NCBI GenBank assembly: GCA_029564595.1
Contig: JAKQPS010000044.1
Location: 1-64,000 of the forward strand
Length of the DNA: 64,000 nt
Direction of reading: 5' to 3'
Source of the DNA: a bacterium
GTDB lineage: Bacteria; UBP15; UBA6099
Part shown: positions 9,959 through 42,779 of the stretch, in pieces
Numbering within the stretch: the first letter of the stretch is position 1
How the letters are laid out: each line of letters begins with the position of its first letter
Made by a program: the position numbers and the translations under genes
Notes under the pieces: generated by a model
Databases searched by the model: none
What the model saw: only the letters and a program-made list of their open reading frames with translations
What the model was told of the DNA's origin: nothing

Positions 9959-12900
9959 TTAAGGCGTTGTCGTCTCAGGCAAAGTCCTAGCAGTCTGGCA
10001 AACCTTATTGCTCACATTGCCCAGATGGTTTACGTTTCCTGAATTGTCCACCGTCTGAACGCAAATAGTGAGATCCGTGTCAGGCGTCAAATTCGATAAG
10101 ACGACCACATTGCCGCTAGTCAGAGTGTGTCTGGCGTCGTCTACCAATATGACATAGCCTCCGCCTCTGTCAGGCGGCACTCCCGGCCAACTCAGCGCCT
10201 GCCCCGTGACCGCCGTGCAGTCGCTTGGGTGATCCCACCTGACGGTCACCGAGCGCTCCGCCGCTGTTATCGTGACATTTCTCGGCGCGGGAGGCCGTTT
10301 CAGATAGTTCCATACTTCAGAAAACACCCATGTGTTTCCACAAGTTCCGCCATCGGGCGTTACGCTGGCCCCGACTCTCCAGTAATAAACCACCCCGTTC
10401 GTCATCGGAACATAGTGTCCGTCCTGTATCGATCCTACGAAGCACTGTTGATACGGACACGGGAATGTCCCGTGCATCGGGCTGGCCGAATAATCCGTAA
10501 ACACGATGTTCCTAAAATCATAAGTGTCGGACACATCGATTCTATAACAGGACTTGCCGTGCGCGAACGGTATCGGACTCCAGTAGTAAGACGCGTCCAC
10601 ACAGCTTACGTCCACGCAATTGTCGATTCCCGCCCCGGTCGGGTCAAGCGTCGGGTCGCACGCGCCATTGCCGGGAGGCGACGCCAGAACGACGGCCGGT
10701 ATCAGCACTGTAAACGAGTTGTACGGCGACCAGTCTCCGGGATATCCCGCTCCTGAAACCGTCTGCACTCCCGACGTGTCTCTCGCCCTCACCCTCCAAC
10801 TGAAAATATCTCCATTGGTCACGCTCGTAGTCGACAGATCGCAGAAAGTATTCTGCGTGTTCGTTCGCGGCGGGTCCGGCGGATTCTCTGGCACGTACAG
10901 GAATTGCGGATTGCACAGGAACGGCCTGCCGTTGCTGAGTATTTCTATGTCGTAGCTCGCCGCGCCAATAACGCCAGATATCTGTTCATCGCCCACTTCC
11001 CCGCCGTCCCAGTCGAAATGCAGGCACAACGTCGAGGAAGCTCCGTCGCAGTCGTCAACTAGCATCACCTGCTCGCCATGCATCGGCGCAAACAACCTCG
11101 GCTTGGGAAGCCCGGTGATGAACTCTCTCGAATTGGCGTCGTTGAACGGCGTTCCCTGAACGGTTACGTTCCATCGATATCTGCGACCGGCCATGAACTC
11201 GATATTCTCCGATGTCGAGTTCAGGGAACAGGTTGAAATCGTCTTCTGGAATATTGTCACGTAACTGGCCGTTCCGGGCGGCGACCCGTCGGGAAGCGCG
11301 TCGTCGGACGCCTCGATCGCCTCGATTCTAAAAATATACCCCGGATGCTGGCCCATCGCGGTGCAGATGAAATCAATGTTGTATTTATACGTGGGTTGAC
11401 CGTAGAAAGGATCGAGCACTATTCCGGCGGAAAGGTCCGGGCCTATTATCTCGTTGTTCGCGGGCGAAGTTAATATCGGAGCTTCGTGCCCTGTCACATA
11501 GAATGTCCTTCTGTTCACATTCTGCCATGTGCCGGACACCGCGCCGTAATCGTCGAACGCTCTTACTTCCCACATGTACGTGCCCGACAACGAGCAAGTC
11601 GGGTCGGTCGACAGATTGCACGGATTCAAGTCCACATCCGACATCTCGGCCTCGTTGGATGTCACGTTCATCTGCCAAACTATCGGGAAATAGGTGCAGT
11701 TGTTCCCAGTTCCCTGAACGCTGCACAGCCGCACCGTGTATCCCGCCGCGCCGGGAGTCAACGTCCAACTGAAGTTTATGCGATTTGAGCTGCTAACCGC
11801 TAGGTACTCTCCATTTCCGGGACTGACCGGGTCCGGCGGGAACAGGTTTTTCACAAACTGCGACTGCGAACAGCTTGAGGTGAATACCGTGAACTTGCTG
11901 TTCCCAGAACATACGCGCCACGCATACTCATTGCTCGACCCGGTCTGACTGGGCGACGCCGGGTTTTTAAGAGCCTCTTTCGCCGTGCCGTCCTCGTTAA
12001 AGACAATCGATGTCTCGTTCCCGCTTAAAGTCGTGTTCCAGATATACTTCGCCGCGTTGCCGAAGCCGTCCGATTTCTGAACAAGTTGGAATTGGTAGAA
12101 TTCGGCTCCGTTCTCCTTCAACCAGCGGAACTCGGGCTGTGGCACGTATACCATCTGGTCGTACAGCGGGTAATAAACCGACGGCCCTTTCAGAAGCAAT
12201 GTCACCGACTGCGGAGTCGACGGATTGCTTTCAACGTCATACTCGTCGACAGCCGTCAGATAATAACTATACGTTCTGCCTCTCGGCAAATATGTGTCTT
12301 CGTAACAAACCACGTTTGTTTTTGTTGAGCTGCAAGCCGCGTTCAAAACCTCTGTCAAAAGATTGCTGCAAATCCCGACTCCGTATCCGGCCTCTCCAGC
12401 CACGTCGTGACATCTATATATCCTGAACTTCGTGATGCTCTCCGAAGTCGGTTTCTGCCAATACAACGTTATTGAACTGTTCGAATCATTGGTGGTCGTT
12501 GGGTCTGACTGCTGTGGCGAGCAGTATGCGCCTCCGCACCAGTCCGGCTCGTCGGGTTTGTCCGTGGATTCGTCCTTTGTGAATCTGAACTCAGTGCTCC
12601 ATGGCGATTCGCCCCATTTGCCGACAGCCTGCACCCTCCATCTATAGGTTTTTCCCTTGGCAAGCTTCACAATCGGGGTTGAGGGATATGTTATGCTTAC
12701 CAGCGCCGCGCTAGTGGAGCTGATTTGAGGATCCCATATCAACTCATTGCCGTCAAAAAGATTCAACATATAGCTCGTTGGGGCATTGCTGTTCATTGAG
12801 CGCCAAATAAACGTCGGCTCGTTCGCTTTTACTGTTGTCGCGGTAACAGATCCCGGACTTATTAGGGTGGGCCTCTGCAACTCTGGAATGCCCGACGTGA

Positions 12901-15568
12901 CCACCGAGCGTTGGCTCATCACCCCGCCCGTCGTCACGCTGGCCAACTGATAGTAGTATTTCGTTCCGTTCTTCACATCAATATCGCAATATCCCGGATT
13001 TGATTCGCTGAACGAGTCGGGACAATTAGGGTCTGGTAAAGGAGAGCCAAGTTGGGATTTGAAAACTGTCGCTATCTCGTCAAGCCCTGTCGAAGACTCT
13101 TCCTCGCGAAAAATGCGATACCCTATCACGTTGGGATCCGCAATCTCATACCACCTCAACGACACCACGCCGTTTCCGGTCTTAACCGGTTGAAGGCCCG
13201 CCCCGCTTACCCAAAGGGGTATGGGCAAGTCGGAATCCTCCGACTCGGCGCGTTTGGTGAACTGCACAGTGTTGGCGCTTGTGTACGAGCATCCGTTGTC
13301 GGCAAGAACGTACCAATAGTACGTCATGTCGTTAAGCAATTCTACGCCGTTATATTCGACCGAGTTAGCAGGACTCTCCGGCGTATTGTCCAACATAGTA
13401 AAAAATACGCTTGCGCCATTCTGGTTATAAACGTTGACGACATATTTTTTCGCGCAGGCGTCGCCCTGCCACAAAAAAGTCGGCTTTTCATACAGAATAT
13501 CAGCCCCGCTCGTCGGGCTTATCGTCGCCGGGGCATTCGTAATAGTGCAACACTCTTCTCCGGGATTGACTCCGGTGTATGTGAACTGCCAGCTTACTGA
13601 AGGAATCTCTTTGCCTCTCGCGTTCGTATACCCGTCCACGCGCCATCTGTAAACAGTGTCGCGATAAAGAGTGGAGCCGCCGTATTCAACGGTGTATGAT
13701 TGCCTTTCTCCGCTGCTGGAAGAGCCTTCCCCATCCAGCCTCTCGGAAAATATCACTTCTTTTACCGCAGCTGTGGTCTCAACCGTCAGAATGTAATAGT
13801 CCATCGTCCCCGACCCTGTGAAAATGAACGATGGAGTTGGATTCTGTATGTTTGAGTTGTTGGCAGGCGAAATCAGCGTGATGTCTTCAATTTTGCATAC
13901 CGTTGGGTCTGAGGACGGAATCGTGCACTCAATTGGAGAGACAAGAGCGTCCTGTTCCTGATTGCTGCTGATGCCCTGAATGGCGTAGCAGACCTGCTGG
14001 TCGTTAGTCATATTCGTCAGTTCATAACTCTCGGTGTTTCTACCTTGCACAATCGTCTTCACTGTCGAGCAGGATGTCGGAGAGCAGTCGTATATCTTGT
14101 ATCCGGTCACGTTCGTGCTGTCCAGCGCCTGCCAGTACAGCCCCACGGCGCCATCGCCGCATTGCGCCTTGAAATTGCCCGGCCTCGGAAGCGGCGATTC
14201 CCGGTTGTCTTCCACAACCACATAAGGCGTAAAATGAGTGACGTTGCACGACACGCCGTATCTGTTTCCTATCGCCGTGTGTCTGCCGTATGTCGAGTCG
14301 ATTACTTCCCATGTCCCGAAATCGGTGTTGCAGGTGGCGCAGCTCAACTTGGACGAATCATTGAAAGCTATGTTGGTCATGTCGAAAATAAGCGTGTAGC
14401 CGTTGCCGGGAAGAGTCGAATCTTTTGTGGTGGTCGAAAGCCGAAATTCGTATGCGGTCGTGCTTATCGGCGCTATGCTCGCGCTTGAATTCCAGCATGA
14501 CATCAGCCCGGCGTCCGAAGCCGGATTGGTAATCTTGAACGGCGCGCCGGGTATGTAATCGACGTTAAACGGCGTCGGCGAGTACACCACGGCTTTGTTA
14601 TCCGCGCTTGCCACGGAAGAAGCCCCGACCTGAGCCTGCGCGGACTCCGCTTTGCTGCCGCCTCGCGATACGGCGGCCACAACTCCGACAGCCAACAGCC
14701 CTATGACCAGCGGGCTGAGTTTTTTCTTTTCAGGAACTTTTTTTATGCCGCCCGTCAACTCTTCGTATACCGCCGGCGTGTACACCAGTCTCGCCCTGTC
14801 TCCGGCCTTTATGCTAACGCCTTTTTTCTGCTCTATGATTTTGCCGACCGAGTGCGCTATGCTGACCTCGTCTATCTCTATGGAGGCGACTTGTCGGTCG
14901 CCCCTCATGATGGCAACTTCGGCTCCAACCCTTACGTTGTCTCTCTGAGCAAGGTTAGTGTAAACCTTGTTTCCCTTGAGCATGGTGACAACGCCGAACT
15001 TAGACATGTTTTCGAAAAGGAATCCGACCGCGTTCCTGACGCCGTCCCTAATCGCCATCTCCGCCAACTGTTCCATTGTCCCGGAGAAACCGAGCCTAGC
15101 GACTCTTCCGACTACGACCGCTTCGCTCAACAGATGCCCTTCTGCCACGGAATACATCGACAACCCGACTTCCACCTGAGCCTGTTCAGTTCCAGAATAC
15201 TTGATATCGCTCACGAATCCGACCACGACAGCTTCAGCGCCGACTGCTTCGCCGACGGATATCGCCACGTCAGGATTCGGCTTTAACCCTCGCATCGCCT
15301 CGACTATTTTCGCTCTGGCCGTCAAATCGCAGTTCTCTACATCCGACAGTTCGGCCAACAGCATGTCAATCCCGAAGTTGTCCGCAAGGATGTCGCTTTT
15401 GGTAAGGTTCTCTATGCCGACAGCCGCTATGATGATTTTCTTCTCCGCAGCCTGTTGCGCGAGCGCCGTCCCAGACCCGTCGCCGTATGTAAGCGTCAGC
15501 GTTATCGCCGCCAGCAGATACGACGCCACCCATCTTGTGAGCCTCATCTCCAGTATCTTTCCGAACAT
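9959..15568 (-). CDS. Giant secreted protein: CsgG/FlgT-like head plus fibronectin-type array
   Basis: The protein has 1869 residues. A signal peptide (YLLAAITLTLTYGDGSGTALAQ) is followed by a roughly 230-residue domain with CsgG/FlgT-like features, including IIIAAVGIENLTKSD, VGEAVGAEAVVVGFVSDI and a C-terminal part with VYTNLAQRDNVRVGAEVAI and SIKAGDRARLVY. A second hydrophobic segment, LSPLVIGLLAVGVVAAV, comes near residue 285. The remaining 1500 residues are repeated fibronectin-III-like and Ig-like modules, recognisable by lines such as KTYRWRVQAVG, MYYWRV-like strands and SPANN(S/E)I-type repeats, with many Cys. Such heads bind peptidoglycan or outer-membrane partners and such arrays project or bind polymers. 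The ATG at 15568 has a CGGAGGGAAAGC ribosome site. It lies 80 bp after recO. Exact function unknown. Confidence 0.8.
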   Translation of the reverse strand: MFGKILEMRLTRWVASYLLAAITLTLTYGDGSGTALAQQAAEKKIIIAAVGIENLTKSDILADNFGIDMLLAELSDVENCDLTARAKIVEAMRGLKPNPDVAISVGEAVGAEAVVVGFVSDIKYSGTEQAQVEVGLSMYSVAEGHLLSEAVVVGRVARLGFSGTMEQLAEMAIRDGVRNAVGFLFENMSKFGVVTMLKGNKVYTNLAQRDNVRVGAEVAIMRGDRQVASIEIDEVSIAHSVGKIIEQKKGVSIKAGDRARLVYTPAVYEELTGGIKKVPEKKKLSPLVIGLLAVGVVAAVSRGGSKAESAQAQVGASSVASADNKAVVYSPTPFNVDYIPGAPFKITNPASDAGLMSCWNSSASIAPISTTAYEFRLSTTTKDSTLPGNGYTLIFDMTNIAFNDSSKLSCATCNTDFGTWEVIDSTYGRHTAIGNRYGVSCNVTHFTPYVVVEDNRESPLPRPGNFKAQCGDGAVGLYWQALDSTNVTGYKIYDCSPTSCSTVKTIVQGRNTESYELTNMTNDQQVCYAIQGISSNQEQDALVSPIECTIPSSDPTVCKIEDITLISPANNSNIQNPTPSFIFTGSGTMDYYILTVETTAAVKEVIFSERLDGEGSSSSGERQSYTVEYGGSTLYRDTVYRWRVDGYTNARGKEIPSVSWQFTYTGVNPGEECCTITNAPATISPTSGADILYEKPTFLWQGDACAKKYVVNVYNQNGASVFFTMLDNTPESPANSVEYNGVELLNDMTYYWYVLADNGCSYTSANTVQFTKRAESEDSDLPIPLWVSGAGLQPVKTGNGVVSLRWYEIADPNVIGYRIFREEESSTGLDEIATVFKSQLGSPLPDPNCPDSFSESNPGYCDIDVKNGTKYYYQLASVTTGGVMSQRSVVTSGIPELQRPTLISPGSVTATTVKANEPTFIWRSMNSNAPTSYMLNLFDGNELIWDPQISSTSAALVSITYPSTPIVKLAKGKTYRWRVQAVGKWGESPWSTEFRFTKDESTDKPDEPDWCGGAYCSPQQSDPTTTNDSNSSITLYWQKPTSESITKFRIYRCHDVAGEAGYGVGICSNLLTEVLNAACSSTKTNVVCYEDTYLPRGRTYSYYLTAVDEYDVESNPSTPQSVTLLLKGPSVYYPLYDQMVYVPQPEFRWLKENGAEFYQFQLVQKSDGFGNAAKYIWNTTLSGNETSIVFNEDGTAKEALKNPASPSQTGSSNEYAWRVCSGNSKFTVFTSSCSQSQFVKNLFPPDPVSPGNGEYLAVSSSNRINFSWTLTPGAAGYTVRLCSVQGTGNNCTYFPIVWQMNVTSNEAEMSDVDLNPCNLSTDPTCSLSGTYMWEVRAFDDYGAVSGTWQNVNRRTFYVTGHEAPILTSPANNEIIGPDLSAGIVLDPFYGQPTYKYNIDFICTAMGQHPGYIFRIEAIEASDDALPDGSPPGTASYVTIFQKTISTCSLNSTSENIEFMAGRRYRWNVTVQGTPFNDANSREFITGLPKPRLFAPMHGEQVMLVDDCDGASSTLCLHFDWDGGEVGDEQISGVIGAASYDIEILSNGRPFLCNPQFLYVPENPPDPPRTNTQNTFCDLSTTSVTNGDIFSWRVRARDTSGVQTVSGAGYPGDWSPYNSFTVLIPAVVLASPPGNGACDPTLDPTGAGIDNCVDVSCVDASYYWSPIPFAHGKSCYRIDVSDTYDFRNIVFTDYSASPMHGTFPCPYQQCFVGSIQDGHYVPMTNGVVYYWRVGASVTPDGGTCGNTWVFSEVWNYLKRPPAPRNVTITAAERSVTVRWDHPSDCTAVTGQALSWPGVPPDRGGGYVILVDDARHTLTSGNVVVLSNLTPDTDLTICVQTVDNSGNVNHLGNVSNKVCQTARTLPETTTP

Positions 15569-25834: not shown

Positions 25835-28015
25835 TTACACGCCCACCATTCCGAGCGACCTTACTTTGCAATCGGACGATATCTCGCTGTGCGACAGAAC
25901 CGTCAGCGACGGGAACAACCTTTCTATCAGCCGCCTCACATACATCCTCACCCTCGGCGAACACATGATTATCGGCTGGTAGTTCAACTGCACCGTCTTC
26001 TCCACCATCTTGCTCATGTTCTCCGTCAGCTTGTCTATCACTTCCGGCGGCAGCACGGGATATGACATCGTCCCCGCGTCATGCACCGACTGAAGCACCA
26101 AGTCCTCAAGCTTCGGGTCTATTGTTATAACCGGCAGAGTGCCGTCGTTCATCTGATGCTGTTTGCAAATCTGGCGCGCAAGCGCCGCGCGCACGTACTC
26201 CGTCAGCACGTTCACGTCCTTGCTCAATGTCCCGTAGTCGGCCAGCGCTTCGAGTATCAGAGCCAAATTCCTTATCGAAACTCTTTCTCTCAGAAGGTTT
26301 TGCAGCACTTTCTGGATATCCCCAAGCTCCATCTTGTTCGGTATAAGCTCCTCGACAACGACGGAATGCTTTTCCTTGACGATGTTGACAAGTTCCTGAG
26401 TCTCTTGCCTGCCGAGAAGCTCATAAGCGTGGCTTTTGATTACTTCCGTCAGGTGCGTGGCGACCACCGACGCGGGGTCGACCACTGTGTATCCGAGAAG
26501 TTCGGCCTGTTCCTTGCCGCCCTCTCGTATCCATTTTGCGGGCAGGCCGAATGCCGGCTCCGTCGTGTTTACGCCTTCGATTTCCTGAGTGGCTCCGCCG
26601 GGGTTCATCGCCAGAAAATGATCCACCATCAGAGAGCCGCCGGCGACCTCGACTCCTTTGATTTTTATCGAATAGTCGTTCGGTCTCAGTTGGATATTGT
26701 CTCGTATTCTTATCGGCGGGACGATTATTCCCATCTCAAGCGCTGTCTGCCGCCTTATCATTGTTACCCGGTCGAGAAGGTCTCCCTTTTGATCCGGGTC
26801 CACAAGAGGTATCAATCCATACCCTATCTCAAGTTCCATCGGGTCTACGTAAAGCAGAGCGGAAACAGCTTCGGGAGAAGCGTAAGGCGCGGAGGGCGGA
26901 TGTCCCTGTTGCGTTCCGGCTGACTGAGCCGGGGCTCCCGACATCCCCGATCCCGGCCTGCCGGCTGGAGCCGGTCTTCCTGCCGCCGATTCCTGCTGCC
27001 CCAACCCCAGCTTGTCGAACGCCAGCGCGAACCCGCCGAGTATGAGCGTGATGATGAGTAGCGAAAACACCAAGCCGAATGAACCGGAGAAAACTGAGAA
27101 AATCGTGAACGCGCCCATCACTCCGGCCGCGATCGTAAGCACCCGCTTCTGCCCCAGCATCTGTCTGACTATCTCCGTGCTGAGATTCGCTCCGGAAGCC
27201 GCGTTAGTAACCATCACGCCGGTGGCGGTGGATATGAGAAGCGAAGGTATCGCCGCCGCAAGCCCGTCGCCTATGGTCAGCACGGTATACCTCTGAACGG
27301 CTTCTAACCAGTTCATCTTGTATATCGCCACGCCGAGTATAAATCCGCCAATGATGTTTATACCGACGATAATTAACCCGGCCAGAGCTTCCCGCTGAAC
27401 GAACCGGCTGGCTCCGTCCATAGCCCCGAAATAATCCGCTTCCCTTTCTATGGTTTTGCGCCGCTCTCTCGCCTGCTGGTCGGTTATCAACCCGTTGTTC
27501 AAGTCGGCGTCGATGCTCATCTGCTTGCCGGGCATCGCGTCCAGTGTGAACCTAGCCGCGACTTCGCCTATCCTCTGCGCGCCGTGCGTGATAACCATGA
27601 AGTTTACTATCACTATGATGAGAAAGATTATGACGCCCACCACATAGTTGTTCCCGGTAACGAACGTCCCGAAGGTCGTTATTATCGCCCCCGCAGCCTC
27701 TTCATCCTGATGCGCGTTCAGAAGAATAGCTCTTGTCGTCGTTATGTTCAGCGCGAGCCGGAACACCGTCGAAAACAGGATGACCGACGGAAACGAGCTG
27801 AATTGAAGCGGCTCATTGGCGTGCATCGTCACGAGTATCGTCAGTATCGCTACCGTGAGACTGACCGCCACCAGCATGTTGATTAGGGCGGCGGGCACAG
27901 GTATGACGAACATCGTAATAACGACGATTATCATGACCGGCAAGGCCAGTTCAGGCGATTTCGCCATGTTCGCCAAGAACTGGACGGCCTTTGTTTGTAT
28001 TTGCGCTATGTCCAT
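25835..28015 (-). CDS. flhA: Flagellar export gate protein FlhA
   Basis: FlhA is the large export-gate subunit. It forms a nonameric ring under the basal body, conducts protons and docks chaperone-substrate complexes. The 726-residue protein has about eight transmembrane helices in the first 330 residues. The conserved FHIPEP loop includes ARFTLDAMPGKQMSID, and NLSTEIVRQMLGQKRVL follows. A Gly/Pro-rich linker (about 345-385) is longer than usual. The cytoplasmic domain follows (TEPAFGLPAKWI, VVDPASVVATHLTEVIKSHA). It has its own promoter candidate (28061-28090) in a 174-bp spacer after flhB. Translation starts at ATG 28015. Confidence 0.96.
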   Translation of the reverse strand: MDIAQIQTKAVQFLANMAKSPELALPVMIIVVITMFVIPVPAALINMLVAVSLTVAILTILVTMHANEPLQFSSFPSVILFSTVFRLALNITTTRAILLNAHQDEEAAGAIITTFGTFVTGNNYVVGVIIFLIIVIVNFMVITHGAQRIGEVAARFTLDAMPGKQMSIDADLNNGLITDQQARERRKTIEREADYFGAMDGASRFVQREALAGLIIVGINIIGGFILGVAIYKMNWLEAVQRYTVLTIGDGLAAAIPSLLISTATGVMVTNAASGANLSTEIVRQMLGQKRVLTIAAGVMGAFTIFSVFSGSFGLVFSLLIITLILGGFALAFDKLGLGQQESAAGRPAPAGRPGSGMSGAPAQSAGTQQGHPPSAPYASPEAVSALLYVDPMELEIGYGLIPLVDPDQKGDLLDRVTMIRRQTALEMGIIVPPIRIRDNIQLRPNDYSIKIKGVEVAGGSLMVDHFLAMNPGGATQEIEGVNTTEPAFGLPAKWIREGGKEQAELLGYTVVDPASVVATHLTEVIKSHAYELLGRQETQELVNIVKEKHSVVVEELIPNKMELGDIQKVLQNLLRERVSIRNLALILEALADYGTLSKDVNVLTEYVRAALARQICKQHQMNDGTLPVITIDPKLEDLVLQSVHDAGTMSYPVLPPEVIDKLTENMSKMVEKTVQLNYQPIIMCSPRVRMYVRRLIERLFPSLTVLSHSEISSDCKVRSLGMVGV

Positions 28016-28189: not shown

Positions 28190-29269
28190 CTAAATTCCGA
28201 ACCTGTGCTTCTTTTTGCTGACTCTGTAAACGTATGCGAGTATCTCCGCCACGGCTTTGAACAGTTGCGGCGGCACGTAATCTCCGACGTCGGTAAGCTT
28301 GAAGAGAGACTGCGCCAGCGGCTTGTCCTCGATTATCGGAACATTGTTTTCTTTCGCGACCTGCTTGATCTTTTCCGCCACCACTCCCCCGCCCTTCGCC
28401 GTCACTTTCGGCGCGTGCATCTCTTCTGCGGCGTATTCGAGCGCAATCGCCAGTTCCACCGGGTTGGTTATCACCACATCGGCGTTCGGAACCGCCGCCA
28501 TCATCCTTCTCATGGCGATCTCTCTCTGCTTCTCCCTTATCCTCCGACGGACAAGCGGGTCGCCTTCCCTCTGCTTGTACTCGTCTTTCACTTCCTGTTT
28601 CGTCATCTTAATGCTTTTCTCGAAGTCGTACTTCTGATACATCATATCGAGGACAGCGAGAACTATCAGGACAAGCCCGATTTTGAGCGCCATTGTCAGC
28701 ATCGTCACGCACATCAATACGAACGCGTGCTCGATGCCCATGTCCGTCATGAGAAGAAATTTCGGGATCGCCGCCTTTATCGAGGCAAATCCCACATATC
28801 CGACAATCGCGATTTTGAATATGCTCTTTAACAGCTCGGTGACCGAACGCATCGAAAACAGTCTTTGGAATCCGTTTATCGGGTTCAGTTTGCTGAACTT
28901 CGGCTTTATCGACTCCAATGACATATGAAAGCCGACCTGCATGAAACCGTTAATCAAGGCCACCGCCACGAGAACCGCCGCGAACGGAGCCATAATCTTG
29001 ATGCTGAAAATCACCATGTTCGACAAAAGGAAACCTATGTTGCTTTCGTTCAGGTCTGAAAGGCGCACGAAAACTTCGGGGGAAAGCGACCATTCCATGT
29101 ACCGCTTCATGTATCCGTACATATAGCGGCCATATAGAGCGAGCATGCATGAGCCAGCCACTAAAATAGCCGCGGAGCCTACTTCCTGACTCCTCGCCAC
29201 TTGGCCCTTTTTCCGGGCCTCCTGCCTTCGCCTCGGCGTTGCAGTCTCTGTTTTTTCCTCGCTCGCCAT
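28190..29269 (-). CDS. flhB: Flagellar export switch protein FlhB, with NPVE in place of NPTH
   Basis: FlhB is part of the export gate and switches substrate class from rod/hook to filament. The protein has 359 residues. The N-terminus is basic (EEKTETATPRRRQEARKKGQ). Four transmembrane helices follow, then a cytoplasmic domain with KMTKQEVKDEYKQREGDP and ADVVITNP. The usual autocleavage motif NPTH reads NPVE here (residues 269-272, bases 28454-28465). The Asn-Pro cleavage pair is kept, but Thr and His are replaced. The rest (KVTAKGGGVVAEKIKQVAKE, PIIEDKPLAQSLFK) is canonical. An AGGAG ribosome site precedes ATG 29269. It lies 31 bp after fliR. Confidence 0.95.
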   Translation of the reverse strand: MASEEKTETATPRRRQEARKKGQVARSQEVGSAAILVAGSCMLALYGRYMYGYMKRYMEWSLSPEVFVRLSDLNESNIGFLLSNMVIFSIKIMAPFAAVLVAVALINGFMQVGFHMSLESIKPKFSKLNPINGFQRLFSMRSVTELLKSIFKIAIVGYVGFASIKAAIPKFLLMTDMGIEHAFVLMCVTMLTMALKIGLVLIVLAVLDMMYQKYDFEKSIKMTKQEVKDEYKQREGDPLVRRRIREKQREIAMRRMMAAVPNADVVITNPVELAIALEYAAEEMHAPKVTAKGGGVVAEKIKQVAKENNVPIIEDKPLAQSLFKLTDVGDYVPPQLFKAVAEILAYVYRVSKKKHRFGI

Positions 29270-29300: not shown

Positions 29301-30086
29301 TCACGTCATTCCGGCCATCCGCAGCAGCATTGCCATGTCCTGCATCATCGTCACAAAATAGCCCTTCAACAGATACGCTATCAGCCCTATGGACATCCCC
29401 ATCACCCACAGCCCTATCGATATCTGTATCGGAAGCCCCACTATGAACACGTTCATCTGCGGAACCGTTCTGGCCACTATACCCAGCGCCATCGTCACCA
29501 TCAACAACACGAATATTATCGGCATGCCTATCTTGAACGCTATCACGAACGACTTCGACAGCCAACCGACGACTTCCATGCCCAGCGGCTCCGTAAAAGT
29601 GAAAGACCCCAGCGGCGTATAATCGTAACTCGAAGCGATTATCCCTATCAGATAGTGGTGCATGTTAAGTCCGAGGAAAAGCAATATGCCCACAAGGAAA
29701 AGGAACTGCCCCAGTATGGAGATATGCTCGTCGGTCATCGGATCGATGACGTTCACGATTCCGAATCCGACTTGGATTCCGAACATCTGTCCGGCAAGCT
29801 GTATCGACGAGAACATCAGATTCCCAATAATCCCTATCAGGACGCCGACCATCACTTCCCTCAAGACCAGAATCCAGTACAGAACCATCTCTTGGGGGAC
29901 AGGCGGGAAATGCCGCGACACTATGGGAAAGATGATTATGCTCAAAAGGAAGGAAAAACCCATCTTGAACGTCGGGGGAACGGAGCCGCTGCCGATGACC
30001 GGAGAAAGCGCCACCATCGACGCGATCCGCGCGAACACTAATATGAAATACTGGAACATCACTACGTTGACTTCAAGCCATTCCAT
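29301..30086 (-). CDS. fliR: Flagellar export gate protein FliR
   Basis: FliR is a core membrane component of the FliP5-FliQ4-FliR1 export channel. The protein has 261 residues and about six hydrophobic helices (FILVFARIASMVALSPVIG, GFSFLLSIIIFPIVSRHF, ISILGQFLFLVGILLFLGLN, LMVTMALGIVARTVPQMNVF). The RTxPQxNVF(I/V)xGLPxQI motif is well conserved (RTVPQMNVFIVGLPIQI). It sits in the canonical fliP-fliQ-fliR-flhB order, 25 bp after fliQ. Confidence 0.95.
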   Translation of the reverse strand: MEWLEVNVVMFQYFILVFARIASMVALSPVIGSGSVPPTFKMGFSFLLSIIIFPIVSRHFPPVPQEMVLYWILVLREVMVGVLIGIIGNLMFSSIQLAGQMFGIQVGFGIVNVIDPMTDEHISILGQFLFLVGILLFLGLNMHHYLIGIIASSYDYTPLGSFTFTEPLGMEVVGWLSKSFVIAFKIGMPIIFVLLMVTMALGIVARTVPQMNVFIVGLPIQISIGLWVMGMSIGLIAYLLKGYFVTMMQDMAMLLRMAGMT

Positions 30087-30111: not shown

Positions 30112-30381
30112 CTACCTCACATAATTCGGAAGATTCATCAGAAGGTCAACAGTAAAATCCTTCGTCATCTGCATCATCCAGTTGCCGAACAGCACCATCG
30201 CAAGTATCACCGCGAGTATCTTCGGTATGAACGTCAACGTCATTTCCTGAATCGAAGTCACCGCCTGAAACACCGCGACCAACAAGCCCGCGATCAGGCC
30301 GAATATGAGCAGCGGGCCGGCTATGTACAACGCCAGCATCACCGCTTTCGTCCCGAGGTCTATGACTATCCCTTCGGTCAT
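30112..30381 (-). CDS. fliQ: Flagellar export gate protein FliQ
   Basis: The 89-residue protein has two transmembrane helices (AVMLALYIAGPLLIFGLIAG and FIPKILAVILAMVLFGNWMM). The family loop between them reads LVAVFQAVTSIQEMTLTFIPK, matching the FliQ QATTQIxExTLxFxPK pattern. It is part of the FliPQR export channel. It lies 21 bp after fliP on the minus strand. Confidence 0.95.
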   Translation of the reverse strand: MTEGIVIDLGTKAVMLALYIAGPLLIFGLIAGLLVAVFQAVTSIQEMTLTFIPKILAVILAMVLFGNWMMQMTKDFTVDLLMNLPNYVR

Positions 30382-30402: not shown

Positions 30403-31197
30403 CTAATAGAAACTCAGCACAAGCCCGCGCGCGATCAGCGCCCATCCGTCCACAAGTATGAATATCAACAGCTTGAACGGCAACGATATCATTATTGGCG
30501 GCAGCATCAGCATGCCCATCGACATCAGCGTGCTCGCTATCACCATGTCTATCACTAAAAACGGCAGATATATTATGAAGCCCATCTCGAACGCGGACTT
30601 CAGCTCCGACACCAGAAACGCCGGGATCACCACGTGCGTCGGCACGTCCGCCCGCGTCTTCGGCTTCTCCATTCGGGACAGGTTGATAAACAGCGCGAGG
30701 TCTTTCTTCCGCGTCTGTTTCAACATGAATTCCCGCATCGGCTCTTCCGCCTTCTTCAACGCCTCGACGTGGGTTATCTCCTGATTGAGGTACGGCCTCA
30801 GCGCGGTTTCGTTCACCGTCTTAAACACCGGGGCCATTATGAAAAACGTCAGAAACAGCGCGATTCCAACAAGCACCTGAGACGGCGGCATCTGCTGCGT
30901 GCCCAGCGCGTTCCTCGTCAGCGACAACACGATTATTATCCGCGTGAACGACGTCATCATTATGACGATCGACGGCGCCAGCGACAGTATCGTCAGAAGG
31001 AAGATTATCTGAAGCGACAACGCCACATCCTTCGGCGACTCCGCCGGAGACACGCCGAACGTCACTCGCGGAACCACCACCGGGGACTCAGCCGCGATTG
31101 CCGGAACCACGATGAGCGCGAACAACGGCAACAACGCCGGGGACATCCATACCGCCCGCCTCGCTATTCTCTTCATCCGATCAACGCTCTTGTTCAT
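30403..31197 (-). CDS. fliP: Flagellar export gate protein FliP
   Basis: FliP is the main pore subunit of the export channel. The 264-residue protein begins with a cleavable signal peptide ([20 protein letters not shown]), as FliP usually does. The family signatures [20 protein letters not shown] and [20 protein letters not shown] follow, then the long periplasmic loop and [20 protein letters not shown]. The ATG at 31197 overlaps the fliO stop by 4 bases (ATGA), so the two are translationally coupled. Confidence 0.97.
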
Positions 31198-36696: not shown

Positions 36697-39600
36697 TTAA
36701 CGTTTAATGTTCAGCACCTCGACGAGCATTTCGTCCGAGGTGGTGATGATGCGGGAGTTCGCTTGGAACCCGCGCTCGGTGACAATCATGTTGGTGAACT
36801 CGTTGACGATGTCCACGTTGGACTGTTCCAGCGTGCCGCCGACGATCTCGCCCGCTCCGGCGACATAGGCCGGGACAATGTGCGCCGAGCCGGTGTTGGC
36901 CGAAATTGAAAATTCGTTGTCGCCTTCCTTGTTCAGGCCTTCCTCGTTGGCAAACATCGCGAGGGCTATCTGGGCGATGGGCTTAACCACATTGTTGCTG
37001 TATTTGCCCTGAATCACGCCCGACTGGTCCACGCCGAACGTTTCGAGCACGCCCATCTCCCACCCGTTCTGCATGTAGGCGCGGGTGGTAAACTGGGAGG
37101 CGTACTGTGTGACGCCGTCGATGGGGCTGCCGAAGCCGTCGAACACGGCCTCGATGGAGAGGGCTGCCACAGCGCGGCTGCTCGCTCCGTTGGCTCCCAC
37201 CGGGGACGGGTCGAACATTATCGGCCCTTTGTTTCCGCCGAGGCGGGTCGTGTTAATCAGACCGTTGTTGTTGAACACCAGTTCGCCGCTGAGTTTGGCG
37301 GTGGAGGAAATGCCGTCGATGGCGTCCATGCTGTCGAATGCAAAGACATCGTCATAAGGCAACTCCGCTCTCCAGTACCAGCGATTCTGAAAACTGGTAA
37401 GCTCGGTGAGGTCGTAGTTGGAGCCGACGTGAGTGAAAACGAACTGAAGCGTGTGGGCGTCTCCGAGGGAGTCATAAACGTCGATGGATGTCCTGTAGGT
37501 CTCTGCCGAGTTGAAGAGTTTGGAGACCTTGGAGGTTGGCTGTGTGGAAGTGGCCTGATCGTTGATGGCCTGCCCGTTGATGGACGAGAACATGTTGTTG
37601 AATTCTGTCCTAGCGTTGCCCGCGCCGTTCGCGCTCACTTCCTGCCATTCCTGAGCGAAATCCGCCCAGCGGCTGTTCATGATTTCTGCTGGAGGCGTAA
37701 GGCTTCTCTGTTCGGTGGTGTAGTCGGCTGTAAGGCTGATGGTTCCTGTGAAATCCGCGCTTAACGTGCCTGTCGCGTCGAGTGCGCCTAATCCACCGAA
37801 CACTGCGTTCGCCGTCGCGCCGTCCCAAATCAGGGATATGTTCCCAGTCGCGGCGTCGATGGTGTAATGCACGTTCTCAACAAGCTGCAAGTTCGGCGCG
37901 CCGGTCACGCCGTTGGTCTGTGTGCGGTAGCTGAAAGTAATCACATCTGTCGCAGCGGGTTGAACATTGTCAACATTGTTGAAGTACACTCTCGGCGCGC
38001 CTGTCGCGCTCGTCGAGATGTGATACTCGTTGGCAGCTCCCGTAAAGGAGGAGACGTTTCGCCATGTGGTTCCGTTGACGGTCAATTCAGCCGTTCCGTC
38101 TATCATGCCGAGCGTTCCGCCGTTCGTGTATCCCGTCCAGTCGCTTAAATTCATATAAGAGTACATCGTTGTGGGATTCGCCGGGTTGGCTGGGCCGACA
38201 GGCGCGTTTGTCACTCCCGTATTCGTCAGGAAAGACCTTACGACTTGGCCGTAGATCTGAGCGGAGCCGTTGATATCGCCGTAGTCGAGAGTGAGGTTGT
38301 TCGTCTGGTAGTCGAAGTTGCCGACATGCTCGCGGGTCATGGCGTTGCCGAGTCCGCCCTGATTGATGCCGAGGCGGGTTCCGGTCAGCGTCGGGTATGT
38401 GGAATCCTGAAGCATGAACGCCTGCCTTATTCCTGAACCCGACACCGCGTTGATATTCACGGTGATGCTGTTGAAGTTGCCGGTTCCGTCGACTTCATTG
38501 TTGTAGATGTAGAACTTCGCCTCGTCGGAATTGTACTTGACGGTGGCGTTGAGGGTGCCGTTGATATCCGCGGCGTTGAGCGCGTTCTGAATCGCGGTCT
38601 CAAGGTTGCCGATGGTGGTATCGTTAGTCACTTGGAAATAAAGATACTTATCGGCGTTGTAAGGCATTGTGCTCTCGGCGCTCGACTGAGCGTCCCAAGC
38701 AAGGGTGTACCCATTGAGATCGTTAGTTGAGTAAATAACTCCTGAACCCTCGTCTATGGAGTACAAGTTGGCAGTAGTGCCGAGACCTGCCGCGATAGCA
38801 GCTCTATCAGCGAGTTCCTGCGGACTCAAGAAGACGCGTGTCATTGCAGGAAGAATGCCGGAAGGCGTGAGCGTTATGCTCGATGTGTCCATCGGCAGTT
38901 CCGTCGGATCGGCCAGATTGCTGTATTGGATAACATCTCCGACGCCGGCGTACGTGATGGTTGTGCCGCTCGTCAGGATATTCTCGCTAAGGCCTAGGGT
39001 CTGCTGGTTCTGATACAGCGTGTTCACGTTGATTTCTATCCAGTCGCCCTCTCGGATTCCGAGGTGGGTGGGCGAGTACTGGTTGGTGTACGACTCGTAA
39101 AGGTCGACGAGCAGGTCGTTCTTGGTTGCCCAGCCTTCCTTGGGGTCTACGCCGTCCGCGATGAGCGAGCGGGACGTCTCGTCCAAGTTGCAAGCGAGAG
39201 CGACTTGAGTGGTGGCGGCGGCTTCGAGTTTCTCGCCGTAAACGAACGAGATGTCTTCGACCGGGCGCTGTGTGTCGATGGAGAAGTTGTGGTCTTCGTC
39301 CACGAGCACGCGCGACCAGCCCTGAACATACAAGCCGTTGGCGTTCACGAGGCTGCCTTCCTTGTCGAGGCCGAAGGAGCCGTCGCGAGTGTAAACGGTG
39401 CTGCCGGAGCCGTCCTGAAGGACGAACCAGCCGTTGCCGTTGACGGCGACGTCTGTGAGGCGTCCGGTGGTTTCGAGCTGCCCTTGGGTCATGATGTTGG
39501 TGACGGCGGCGGTAGTAACGCCGAGACCGACCTGAAGGGGGTTCGTGCCGCCGCGCCCGTTGCGGGGCGAGGAAGCGGATGAGTATGTGCGGCTCAGCAG

Positions 39601-39729
39601 GTCGGCAAAAGTCGCGCGTCCCATCTTGAAGCCGTAAGTGTTAACGTTGGCGATGTTGTTGCCAATCACGTCCATGCGGGTCTGGTGGTTTTTCAGGCCA
39701 AGCACACCCGTGTAAAACGATGAGTTCAT
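36697..39729 (-). CDS. flgE: Flagellar hook protein FlgE, unusually long
   Basis: FlgE polymerises into the hook, the universal joint of the flagellum. The N-terminal D0/D1 signature is clear (GVLGLKNHQTRMDVIGNNIA followed by NVNTYGFKMGRATFADLL). So are the start of the flg_hook region (QGQLETTGRLTDVAVNGNGW) and the C-terminus (GTLEQSNVDIVNEFTNMIVT, ERGFQANSRIITTSDEMLVE). The protein has 1010 residues, more than twice the usual 400-500. The extra 500-600 residues lie between D1 and the C-terminal rod-like parts and are Thr/Asn/Gly-rich beta modules, presumably surface-exposed D2-D4 domains. A GGGAGG precedes ATG 39729. A 276-bp spacer with GC hairpins separates it from the TIGR02530-type gene. 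Confidence 0.95.
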   Translation of the reverse strand: MNSSFYTGVLGLKNHQTRMDVIGNNIANVNTYGFKMGRATFADLLSRTYSSASSPRNGRGGTNPLQVGLGVTTAAVTNIMTQGQLETTGRLTDVAVNGNGWFVLQDGSGSTVYTRDGSFGLDKEGSLVNANGLYVQGWSRVLVDEDHNFSIDTQRPVEDISFVYGEKLEAAATTQVALACNLDETSRSLIADGVDPKEGWATKNDLLVDLYESYTNQYSPTHLGIREGDWIEINVNTLYQNQQTLGLSENILTSGTTITYAGVGDVIQYSNLADPTELPMDTSSITLTPSGILPAMTRVFLSPQELADRAAIAAGLGTTANLYSIDEGSGVIYSTNDLNGYTLAWDAQSSAESTMPYNADKYLYFQVTNDTTIGNLETAIQNALNAADINGTLNATVKYNSDEAKFYIYNNEVDGTGNFNSITVNINAVSGSGIRQAFMLQDSTYPTLTGTRLGINQGGLGNAMTREHVGNFDYQTNNLTLDYGDINGSAQIYGQVVRSFLTNTGVTNAPVGPANPANPTTMYSYMNLSDWTGYTNGGTLGMIDGTAELTVNGTTWRNVSSFTGAANEYHISTSATGAPRVYFNNVDNVQPAATDVITFSYRTQTNGVTGAPNLQLVENVHYTIDAATGNISLIWDGATANAVFGGLGALDATGTLSADFTGTISLTADYTTEQRSLTPPAEIMNSRWADFAQEWQEVSANGAGNARTEFNNMFSSINGQAINDQATSTQPTSKVSKLFNSAETYRTSIDVYDSLGDAHTLQFVFTHVGSNYDLTELTSFQNRWYWRAELPYDDVFAFDSMDAIDGISSTAKLSGELVFNNNGLINTTRLGGNKGPIMFDPSPVGANGASSRAVAALSIEAVFDGFGSPIDGVTQYASQFTTRAYMQNGWEMGVLETFGVDQSGVIQGKYSNNVVKPIAQIALAMFANEEGLNKEGDNEFSISANTGSAHIVPAYVAGAGEIVGGTLEQSNVDIVNEFTNMIVTERGFQANSRIITTSDEMLVEVLNIKR

Positions 39730-40877: not shown

Positions 40878-42779
40878 TCAGGCTAGGTAGCTAATGCTTG
40901 CTTGTCCGGCGACCGCGCGGCCCGCTAGGCCGTACGTGCCGGTCGTTTCCGAGTCGAAATCGAGGGTAGCCGCGTAACTGTCGGTCATCTCCATCGCCGC
41001 GGTTCCATAGTCCGCTTGATAGGAGCCGCCCGGGGCTTCTTCGCGCGCGTTCTGCGGTTGGCCTTGGTTTCCGGCGCTCACTTCGACCTCGAACTTGCCC
41101 ACTTTGACGCCCATCTCTTCCAGCGCCTGTTTAAGCTGTCCGAGGTTGTTCTCGATGATCGCCTTGACCTCGTTGCTCTGGGCCGTGAACTTGGCCGTCA
41201 CAACGTCCTGTTCGACCTTCACTTTGAGATAAAGGTCTCCCAGTTCGGCGGGCCGCAGCGCGATACGGATTTCTCCGTTCGCTCCGTTCAGGGCGGTGTA
41301 TGACATCCTGCCCATTACCTGCGACATCACGCTTTCCTGAAGCCGCTGTCCGCTGTGGGTCGCCGCCGCCGTCTCCGCTTTTGAAATCAGAATCTCTTGA
41401 ATAGGATTCTGAATCCGTTCGCGTCCCAAGAACGGGATCCGCGAAGCGTCGTCCGCCGCGTTCGCCGCCGCCTTGCCCGAGCTTTCGCTCAACAGGCTCT
41501 CTGCCCATTCCCGCGGGTTTCGTCCGGCGCCTTCGGAGAACTCTTGCAGCAGGCTCTTGAGAATCGTCGCCGATTCCAGTTTGCCGGCCAGCATCTTCTC
41601 CAAATCGAGCTGCGACTGCTGGTCTCCGAACAGGAGTTTCTGCAGACGTTCGTAAATCTGCACTCTGTCGGAGCCGACTGAGGCAAGCTCTTTCGCCAGC
41701 GCTTCCGCGTCCAACGACTTCAGACTGACGTCCGAAGGCGGGTACAGCGGTTCGGCGGTGAAAATCTTGACTCCGTTCTCGCCTGAACCCTGAGCGGGTT
41801 TGAGCGTGAAGGCCGCTTTCGCCTTTTCGGAGTCCGCCGCTGTCTGGCGGTCGGTTTCGGCGACAACCTTTTCCTCGTTCATCCGGACTTCGGCTTCCTG
41901 CTTGCCGGCCTTCAATTCGGGCAGTTTCGCCAGAATGCTCGACAGTTCTTCGTCGAGCGCCGGTTTCGCCTTTTCAGCCGCCGAAATGTCCAACGGTATC
42001 GTCAGAGCTATTTCGGAGTCCTTCAGAGCCGGGTCGGTCATGTCGACCAGTTGAGCGCTTCTCATGCTGTCGGCGCTCAAAGTCAACTTCAGTTCGACAG
42101 TCTTCGAAGCGTCCGACGCGTCCGTCAGCTTCAGCGCGAGTTTCATCGAGCCTTCCGGCTCTTCCGATTCGGCGTCCGCTTTCATCAGTTCGGACAGAGG
42201 AATCATGATTCCTTTGTCTTCGCCGAGCTTGACCAGAAGGTTCACGCCTTCCAAGTCTTCCGCCGCGATCGCTTCGCGTCCGGCTAGCAGCAAATCAAGG
42301 ATTTCTCCAAGCTTGCCTTCGCCGTCAAGGCTCAGTTCGAGCGCGAGGGCGTTTTCCGCCTGTTCGGGCTGCTGCTGCGCCGCCGCCGCCATGAGCGCTA
42401 GGAGTCTGATAAGAAGCTCCAGCGTCTGTTCGTCCGCCGCGCCTTCGCCTTCTTCGAGTTCCTGTCTCAGCCTCTCAACCAGCGCTTCAAGCTTTCTGTT
42501 GGCGTCCGCCTGTTGCCGAGCGATTTCCGCCGCATCGTTCGCGGTGGAATTCGACTGTTCAGGCCTCGCGGCCTTGTCCGCGTCCGCTCCGCTCGTTTTC
42601 TGAGCTTCGCGCGCGCTTCCGGCTTCCGCCCTTGAAGACTGCTTTCGAGTCGCTTGGTCTAAGACGCTTCGGAACTTGCCCGGCTGCGAATTCTCGTCGA
42701 CCCTTTGAGGAAATGGCTCCGGGGATTTCACGGCGCTTCCGCCTGAAATCAACCCAAGAAACAAATCCGTCGCTTGCAT
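40878..42779 (-). CDS. fliK: Flagellar hook-length control protein FliK
   Basis: FliK is the secreted ruler that measures the hook and triggers the FlhB substrate switch. The 633-residue protein has a long Ala/Glu/Lys-rich N-terminal part of low complexity. The conserved C-terminal switch domain follows (IRIALRPAELGDLYLKVKVE, IENNLGQLKQALEEMGVKVG, KFEVEVSAG). The length is in the upper range for FliK. A near-perfect AAAGGAGGTGATG lies upstream of ATG 42779, suggesting strong translation. It sits in the classical position before flgD. Confidence 0.92.
   Translation of the reverse strand: MQATDLFLGLISGGSAVKSPEPFPQRVDENSQPGKFRSVLDQATRKQSSRAEAGSAREAQKTSGADADKAARPEQSNSTANDAAEIARQQADANRKLEALVERLRQELEEGEGAADEQTLELLIRLLALMAAAAQQQPEQAENALALELSLDGEGKLGEILDLLLAGREAIAAEDLEGVNLLVKLGEDKGIMIPLSELMKADAESEEPEGSMKLALKLTDASDASKTVELKLTLSADSMRSAQLVDMTDPALKDSEIALTIPLDISAAEKAKPALDEELSSILAKLPELKAGKQEAEVRMNEEKVVAETDRQTAADSEKAKAAFTLKPAQGSGENGVKIFTAEPLYPPSDVSLKSLDAEALAKELASVGSDRVQIYERLQKLLFGDQQSQLDLEKMLAGKLESATILKSLLQEFSEGAGRNPREWAESLLSESSGKAAANAADDASRIPFLGRERIQNPIQEILISKAETAAATHSGQRLQESVMSQVMGRMSYTALNGANGEIRIALRPAELGDLYLKVKVEQDVVTAKFTAQSNEVKAIIENNLGQLKQALEEMGVKVGKFEVEVSAGNQGQPQNAREEAPGGSYQADYGTAAMEMTDSYAATLDFDSETTGTYGLAGRAVAGQASISYLA

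Follow-up and report, generated by a model that had tools for sequence, protein, structure and literature searches.

The window analyzed here, a stretch of 64,000 nucleotides of DNA from an uncultured bacterium, carries a flagellar flhB gene whose product reads NPVE in place of NPTH at the autocleavage site. This protein most likely works, because the Asn-Pro pair is kept and the changes are confined to the next two residues, which are often variable. Judged by sequence comparison, it is very probably an ordinary, functional FlhB in which NPVE is an inherited variant and which would cleave itself and take part in the export switch.

RESULTS

The flhB gene and its cleavage site

The gene for the export-gate/switch protein FlhB occupies positions 28190 to 29269 of the window on the minus strand, as an uninterrupted open reading frame of 359 amino acids (aa). 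Residues 4 to 347 of its product match the PF01312 (Bac_export_2) profile from position 1 to 335 of 335 (E = 8.7e-126), and the closest solved relatives are the FlhB chains 6s3l and 8z5s. The plus-strand sequence at 28454 to 28465 is ttccaccgggtt, the reverse complement of which, AAC CCG GTG GAA, encodes Asn269-Pro270-Val271-Glu272 in frame. Alignment with known FlhBs, together with conservation within the clade, identifies these four codons as the counterpart of the NPTH autocleavage site, and by homology Asn269 would be the catalytic residue and Asn269-Pro270 (28460 to 28465, minus strand) the scissile peptide bond. The defining Asn-Pro pair of FlhB is therefore present, although the complete NPTH motif is not. 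The first-pass annotation had identified the protein as FlhB, its site as the autocleavage site, and the four residues as NPVE, numbered 269 to 272 and flanked by ADVVITNP and ELAIALEY; the codons in the intact frame, the full-length profile match, and the alignment to known Asn-Pro sites bear out each of these readings.

The neighborhood is that of a flagellar FlhB. The gene stands in a flagellar cluster between flhA (25835 to 28015; Pfam FHIPEP, E = 4.8e-253) and the series fliR (29301 to 30086; Bac_export_1, E = 7.8e-62), fliQ (30112 to 30381; Bac_export_3, E = 5.1e-27), fliP (30403 to 31197; FliP, E = 7e-85), and fliO, all of which are open frames, with flhA, fliR, fliQ, and fliP on the minus strand like flhB itself. 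The same cluster includes fliM, a gene for a FliN-type protein, fliF, fliG, fliH, fliI, fliJ, fliK, and flgE, and its sigma factor and SRP-type GTPase are, from their domain content and context, probably FliA and FlhF. Membership in the SctU branch of the family finds no support, as the protein scores higher against flagellar FlhB chains and its neighboring genes are flagellar. Elsewhere in the window, an open reading frame of 1,869 aa (9959 to 15568) contains one Ig-like and one fibronectin type III domain, and its product is probably a large exported protein.

Conservation among relatives

The NPVE motif occurs in all three sequences of the genus (the window, in which Val-Glu is encoded by GTG GAA, and two other genomes, which were also recovered as public contigs of bacterium UBP15_UBA6099 and bacterium ADurb.Bin236). 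Another genus of the same family has NPVE with different codons (GTC GAG), and another family of the same order has NPIE (ATC GAG), such that Glu272 accompanied by Val or Ile at 271 is common to the whole order. The motif is thus fixed across the genus and shared by a second genus of the family; fixation across a clade is what the first-pass annotation had named as support for its reading.

These relatives bear directly on the view that NPVE is a sequencing or assembly error, or belongs to a decaying gene whose work is done by a second FlhB with NPTH. The assembly, in 203 contigs, is of draft quality, which leaves room for such an explanation, but the same residues occur in separately assembled genomes amid synonymous differences, the two nearest complete flhB copies differing by 38 synonymous and 9 nonsynonymous codons. 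The retention of NPVE in other genomes of the genus and family indicates that it is not an assembly error, and the relatives do not have NPTH, as a change unique to this genome would require. A search for a full-length second flhB in this genome and its relatives returned at most one copy per genome, and the only paralogue here is short and without Asn-Pro. An error or a decaying copy can accordingly be given almost no credence.

The second FlhB match of this genome (G000, contig 36, 31224 to 31983; locus L002) is a paralogue of the FlhB C terminus, with an open reading frame of 103 aa, that comes immediately after a gene whose FliK-type domain is weak. Two other genomes (G004, contig 68; G006, contig 112) likewise pair such a paralogue with a FliK-like gene. 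These short proteins, which we take to be of the FlhX/YlqH type, resemble the C-terminal fragment of FlhB by homology and differ from FlhB in having neither the membrane part nor the Asn-Pro pair.

Cleavage-site motifs across bacteria

The NPTH motif has been called "strictly conserved" in the family (PMC2615192) and "conserved in all FlhB homologs" (PMC3052322). Of 386 genomes searched, 153 supplied FlhB sequences, as did one named contig, and the site was readable in 158 sequences; this sample was ranked by similarity to the window FlhB, with the weakest matches left out. None of the 158 lacks the Asn or the Pro, but only 97 (61%) have the complete NPTH motif. The first-pass annotation was correct that NPVE departs from NPTH, but the rarity that it implied, and its assumption that the Thr-His pair does not normally vary, are contradicted by the 61 sequences that deviate. 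The most frequent variants are NPVH (10 sequences), NPTE (9), NPTR (7), NPVE (5), NPIH (5), and NPTT (4), followed by NPTF, NPEH, and NPDH (3 each) and further motifs found once or twice. His272 is replaced in 38 of the 158 sequences (15 Glu, 10 Arg, 5 Phe, 4 Thr, 2 Ser, 1 Leu, and 1 Gln), and Thr271 in 34 (16 Val, 9 Ile, and the remainder others). The FlhB chain in 6s3l itself reads NPEH, and a change of the Thr is therefore already present in a structurally studied FlhB.

In a maximum-likelihood tree of 154 of the 158 sequences, constructed with the motif columns excluded, the order to which the window belongs forms a single clade (support, 100), whose nearest neighbors, weakly supported, have NPTH and NPVH. 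The minimum numbers of changes on this tree are 16 between His and non-His, 22 between Thr and non-Thr, 28 between Thr-His and any other pair, and 8 between Glu and other residues. NPVE also appears elsewhere on the tree in an unrelated lineage (L038), beside NPTE and NPTL. Taken together, the survey and tree counts make NPVE one of many variants, each of whose substitutions is common. The motif of flagellar FlhB is NP followed by two variable residues; a complete NPTH does not truly define the protein, and "strictly conserved" overstates its conservation. Our search of the open-licence literature found no paper that catalogues natural FlhB motif variants.

Hook length, FliK, and residue 320

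The first-pass annotation had suggested reading NPVE together with the very long hook protein and the long FliK of the same cluster. The flgE gene (36697 to 39729, minus strand; Pfam Flg_bb_rod, LlgE_F_G_D1, FlgE_D2, and Flg_bbr_C) encodes 1,010 aa, toward the top of a broad bacterial range (262 to 1,138 aa in open frames, some of them cut), and between it and a fliL-type gene lies a gene for an MptE-like protein (PF01973; 35223 to 36122). The FlgE frames of the five clade genomes that have an FlhB sequence span 990 to 1,044 aa; the median over 141 genomes is 597 aa, with 11 frames of at least 1,000 aa, although open frames run slightly longer than the proteins themselves and contig ends truncate a few of them. 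All 11 of the other FlgEs of at least 900 aa for which FlhB could be read are paired with NPTH, and the proposed tie between motif and hook protein fails on this point: outside the clade, no long hook coincides with a variant motif. Among the 125 FlhB sequences from outside the clade, FlgE length likewise did not differ between NPTH and variant motifs (medians, 577 and 643; Mann-Whitney test, P = 0.54). Because FlgE length is unrelated to the motif, the long hook and NPVE are best read as separate traits of one lineage.

The same data make it very improbable that Val-Glu belongs to an FlhB surface that co-adapted, in this lineage specifically, with FliK and the very long FlgE. The clade does have long FlgEs, and the cleaved loop is a proposed contact of FliK (PMC3542141), but long hooks elsewhere go with NPTH, and the FliK of the window (40878 to 42779, minus strand; 633 aa) has a canonical C-terminal switch domain (Flg_hook, residues 497 to 573; E = 4.6e-19). 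Co-adaptation would also fit an association between residue 272 and the helix beneath the cleavage loop, for which LARxLY is the consensus (PMC2615192). The equivalent in the window FlhB is LAQSLF (residues 318 to 323; 28301 to 28318, minus strand), with Gln for Arg at alignment column 320. In raw counts that ignore relatedness, Gln320 occurs in 17 of 37 sequences with a non-His residue at 272 and in 14 of 120 with His (Fisher exact test, P = 2e-5), but the association is lost on independent pairs from the tree (7 comparisons; median P = 0.5). Residue 320 as a partner of residue 272 may be regarded as a lead.

DISCUSSION

The predicted action of the NPVE protein follows from that of its homologues. 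Replacement of the Asn by Ala abolishes cleavage in HrcU, EscU, and Spa40, marking the Asn as catalytic, and replacement of the Pro by Ala leaves partial cleavage in the family (PMC3189125, PMC3542141, PMC3040844). In HrcU, N264A is not cleaved, whereas T266A and H267A still are, with a slight effect that leaves more uncleaved protein than in the wild type (PMC3040844). Structures of cleaved proteins show the residues that follow the bond flipped away and exposed (PMC2615192). From the HrcU mutants and the loop structures, we infer that the NPVE protein would cut itself and switch normally. Asn269 would cyclize and break the Asn269-Pro270 bond, and the C-terminal fragment (about 10 kDa, residues 270 to 359) would stay bound to the remainder, as happens in other members of the FlhB/SctU family. 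Val271 and Glu272, directly after the scissile bond, would be tolerant of substitution and dispensable for catalysis, and could tune the cleavage rate and surface charge; NPVE would have been fixed through descent. A structure prediction for the window FlhB from a four-sequence alignment gave a mean pLDDT of 44 and was discarded.

Slightly slower cleavage than usual is possible, since a small effect is seen with T266A and H267A, the alanine single mutants on record being those of the injectisome homologue HrcU and not of flagellar FlhB. It is quite unlikely, however, that Val-Glu strongly slows or blocks self-cleavage, with the clade switching export without FlhB cleavage or with delayed cleavage. 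The uncleaved protein left by both HrcU mutants, and the simultaneous change of both positions in the window FlhB, are what such a block would build on, but the HrcU effect was termed slight, and non-His residues arise repeatedly in many lineages. The retention of Asn and Pro throughout the clade, as in every FlhB surveyed, also counts against it, because one would not expect both residues to be invariant if cells could do without cleavage. Nothing in the sequences points to an unusual export switch in this clade.

The acidic residue at 272 may alter the affinity of FlhB for its partners, since Glu272 would shift the charge beside a cleft that, in Salmonella FlhB, is positively charged and adjoined by a flexible cleavage loop (PMC3640470). 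A broader role, in which Glu272 paired with Val271 or Ile271 sets another cleavage rate or partner surface, here and independently elsewhere, and thereby tunes the timing of the hook-to-filament switch, seems unlikely.

By itself, an NPVE FlhB matters little, being one further FlhB with an intact Asn-Pro pair. The survey makes a small correction to the motif described for the FlhB/SctU family, limiting what is constant in flagellar FlhB to NP, and the natural variants are ready material for probing the roles of Thr and His.

Compared with flagellar FlhB (PF01312; the Salmonella structure 3b0z and the 6s3l chain), the window protein is alike in its full-length match, the position of Asn269-Pro270, and its gene neighborhood, and differs in having Val-Glu for Thr-His and Gln for Arg in the LARxLY helix. 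The SctU homologues of injectisomes (EscU, YscU, Spa40, and HrcU) belong to the same family and share the Asn-Pro cleavage site; the members studied have NPTH, whereas the window FlhB has NPVE, is encoded in an operon of flagellar genes, and finds its best-scoring matches in flagellar FlhB.
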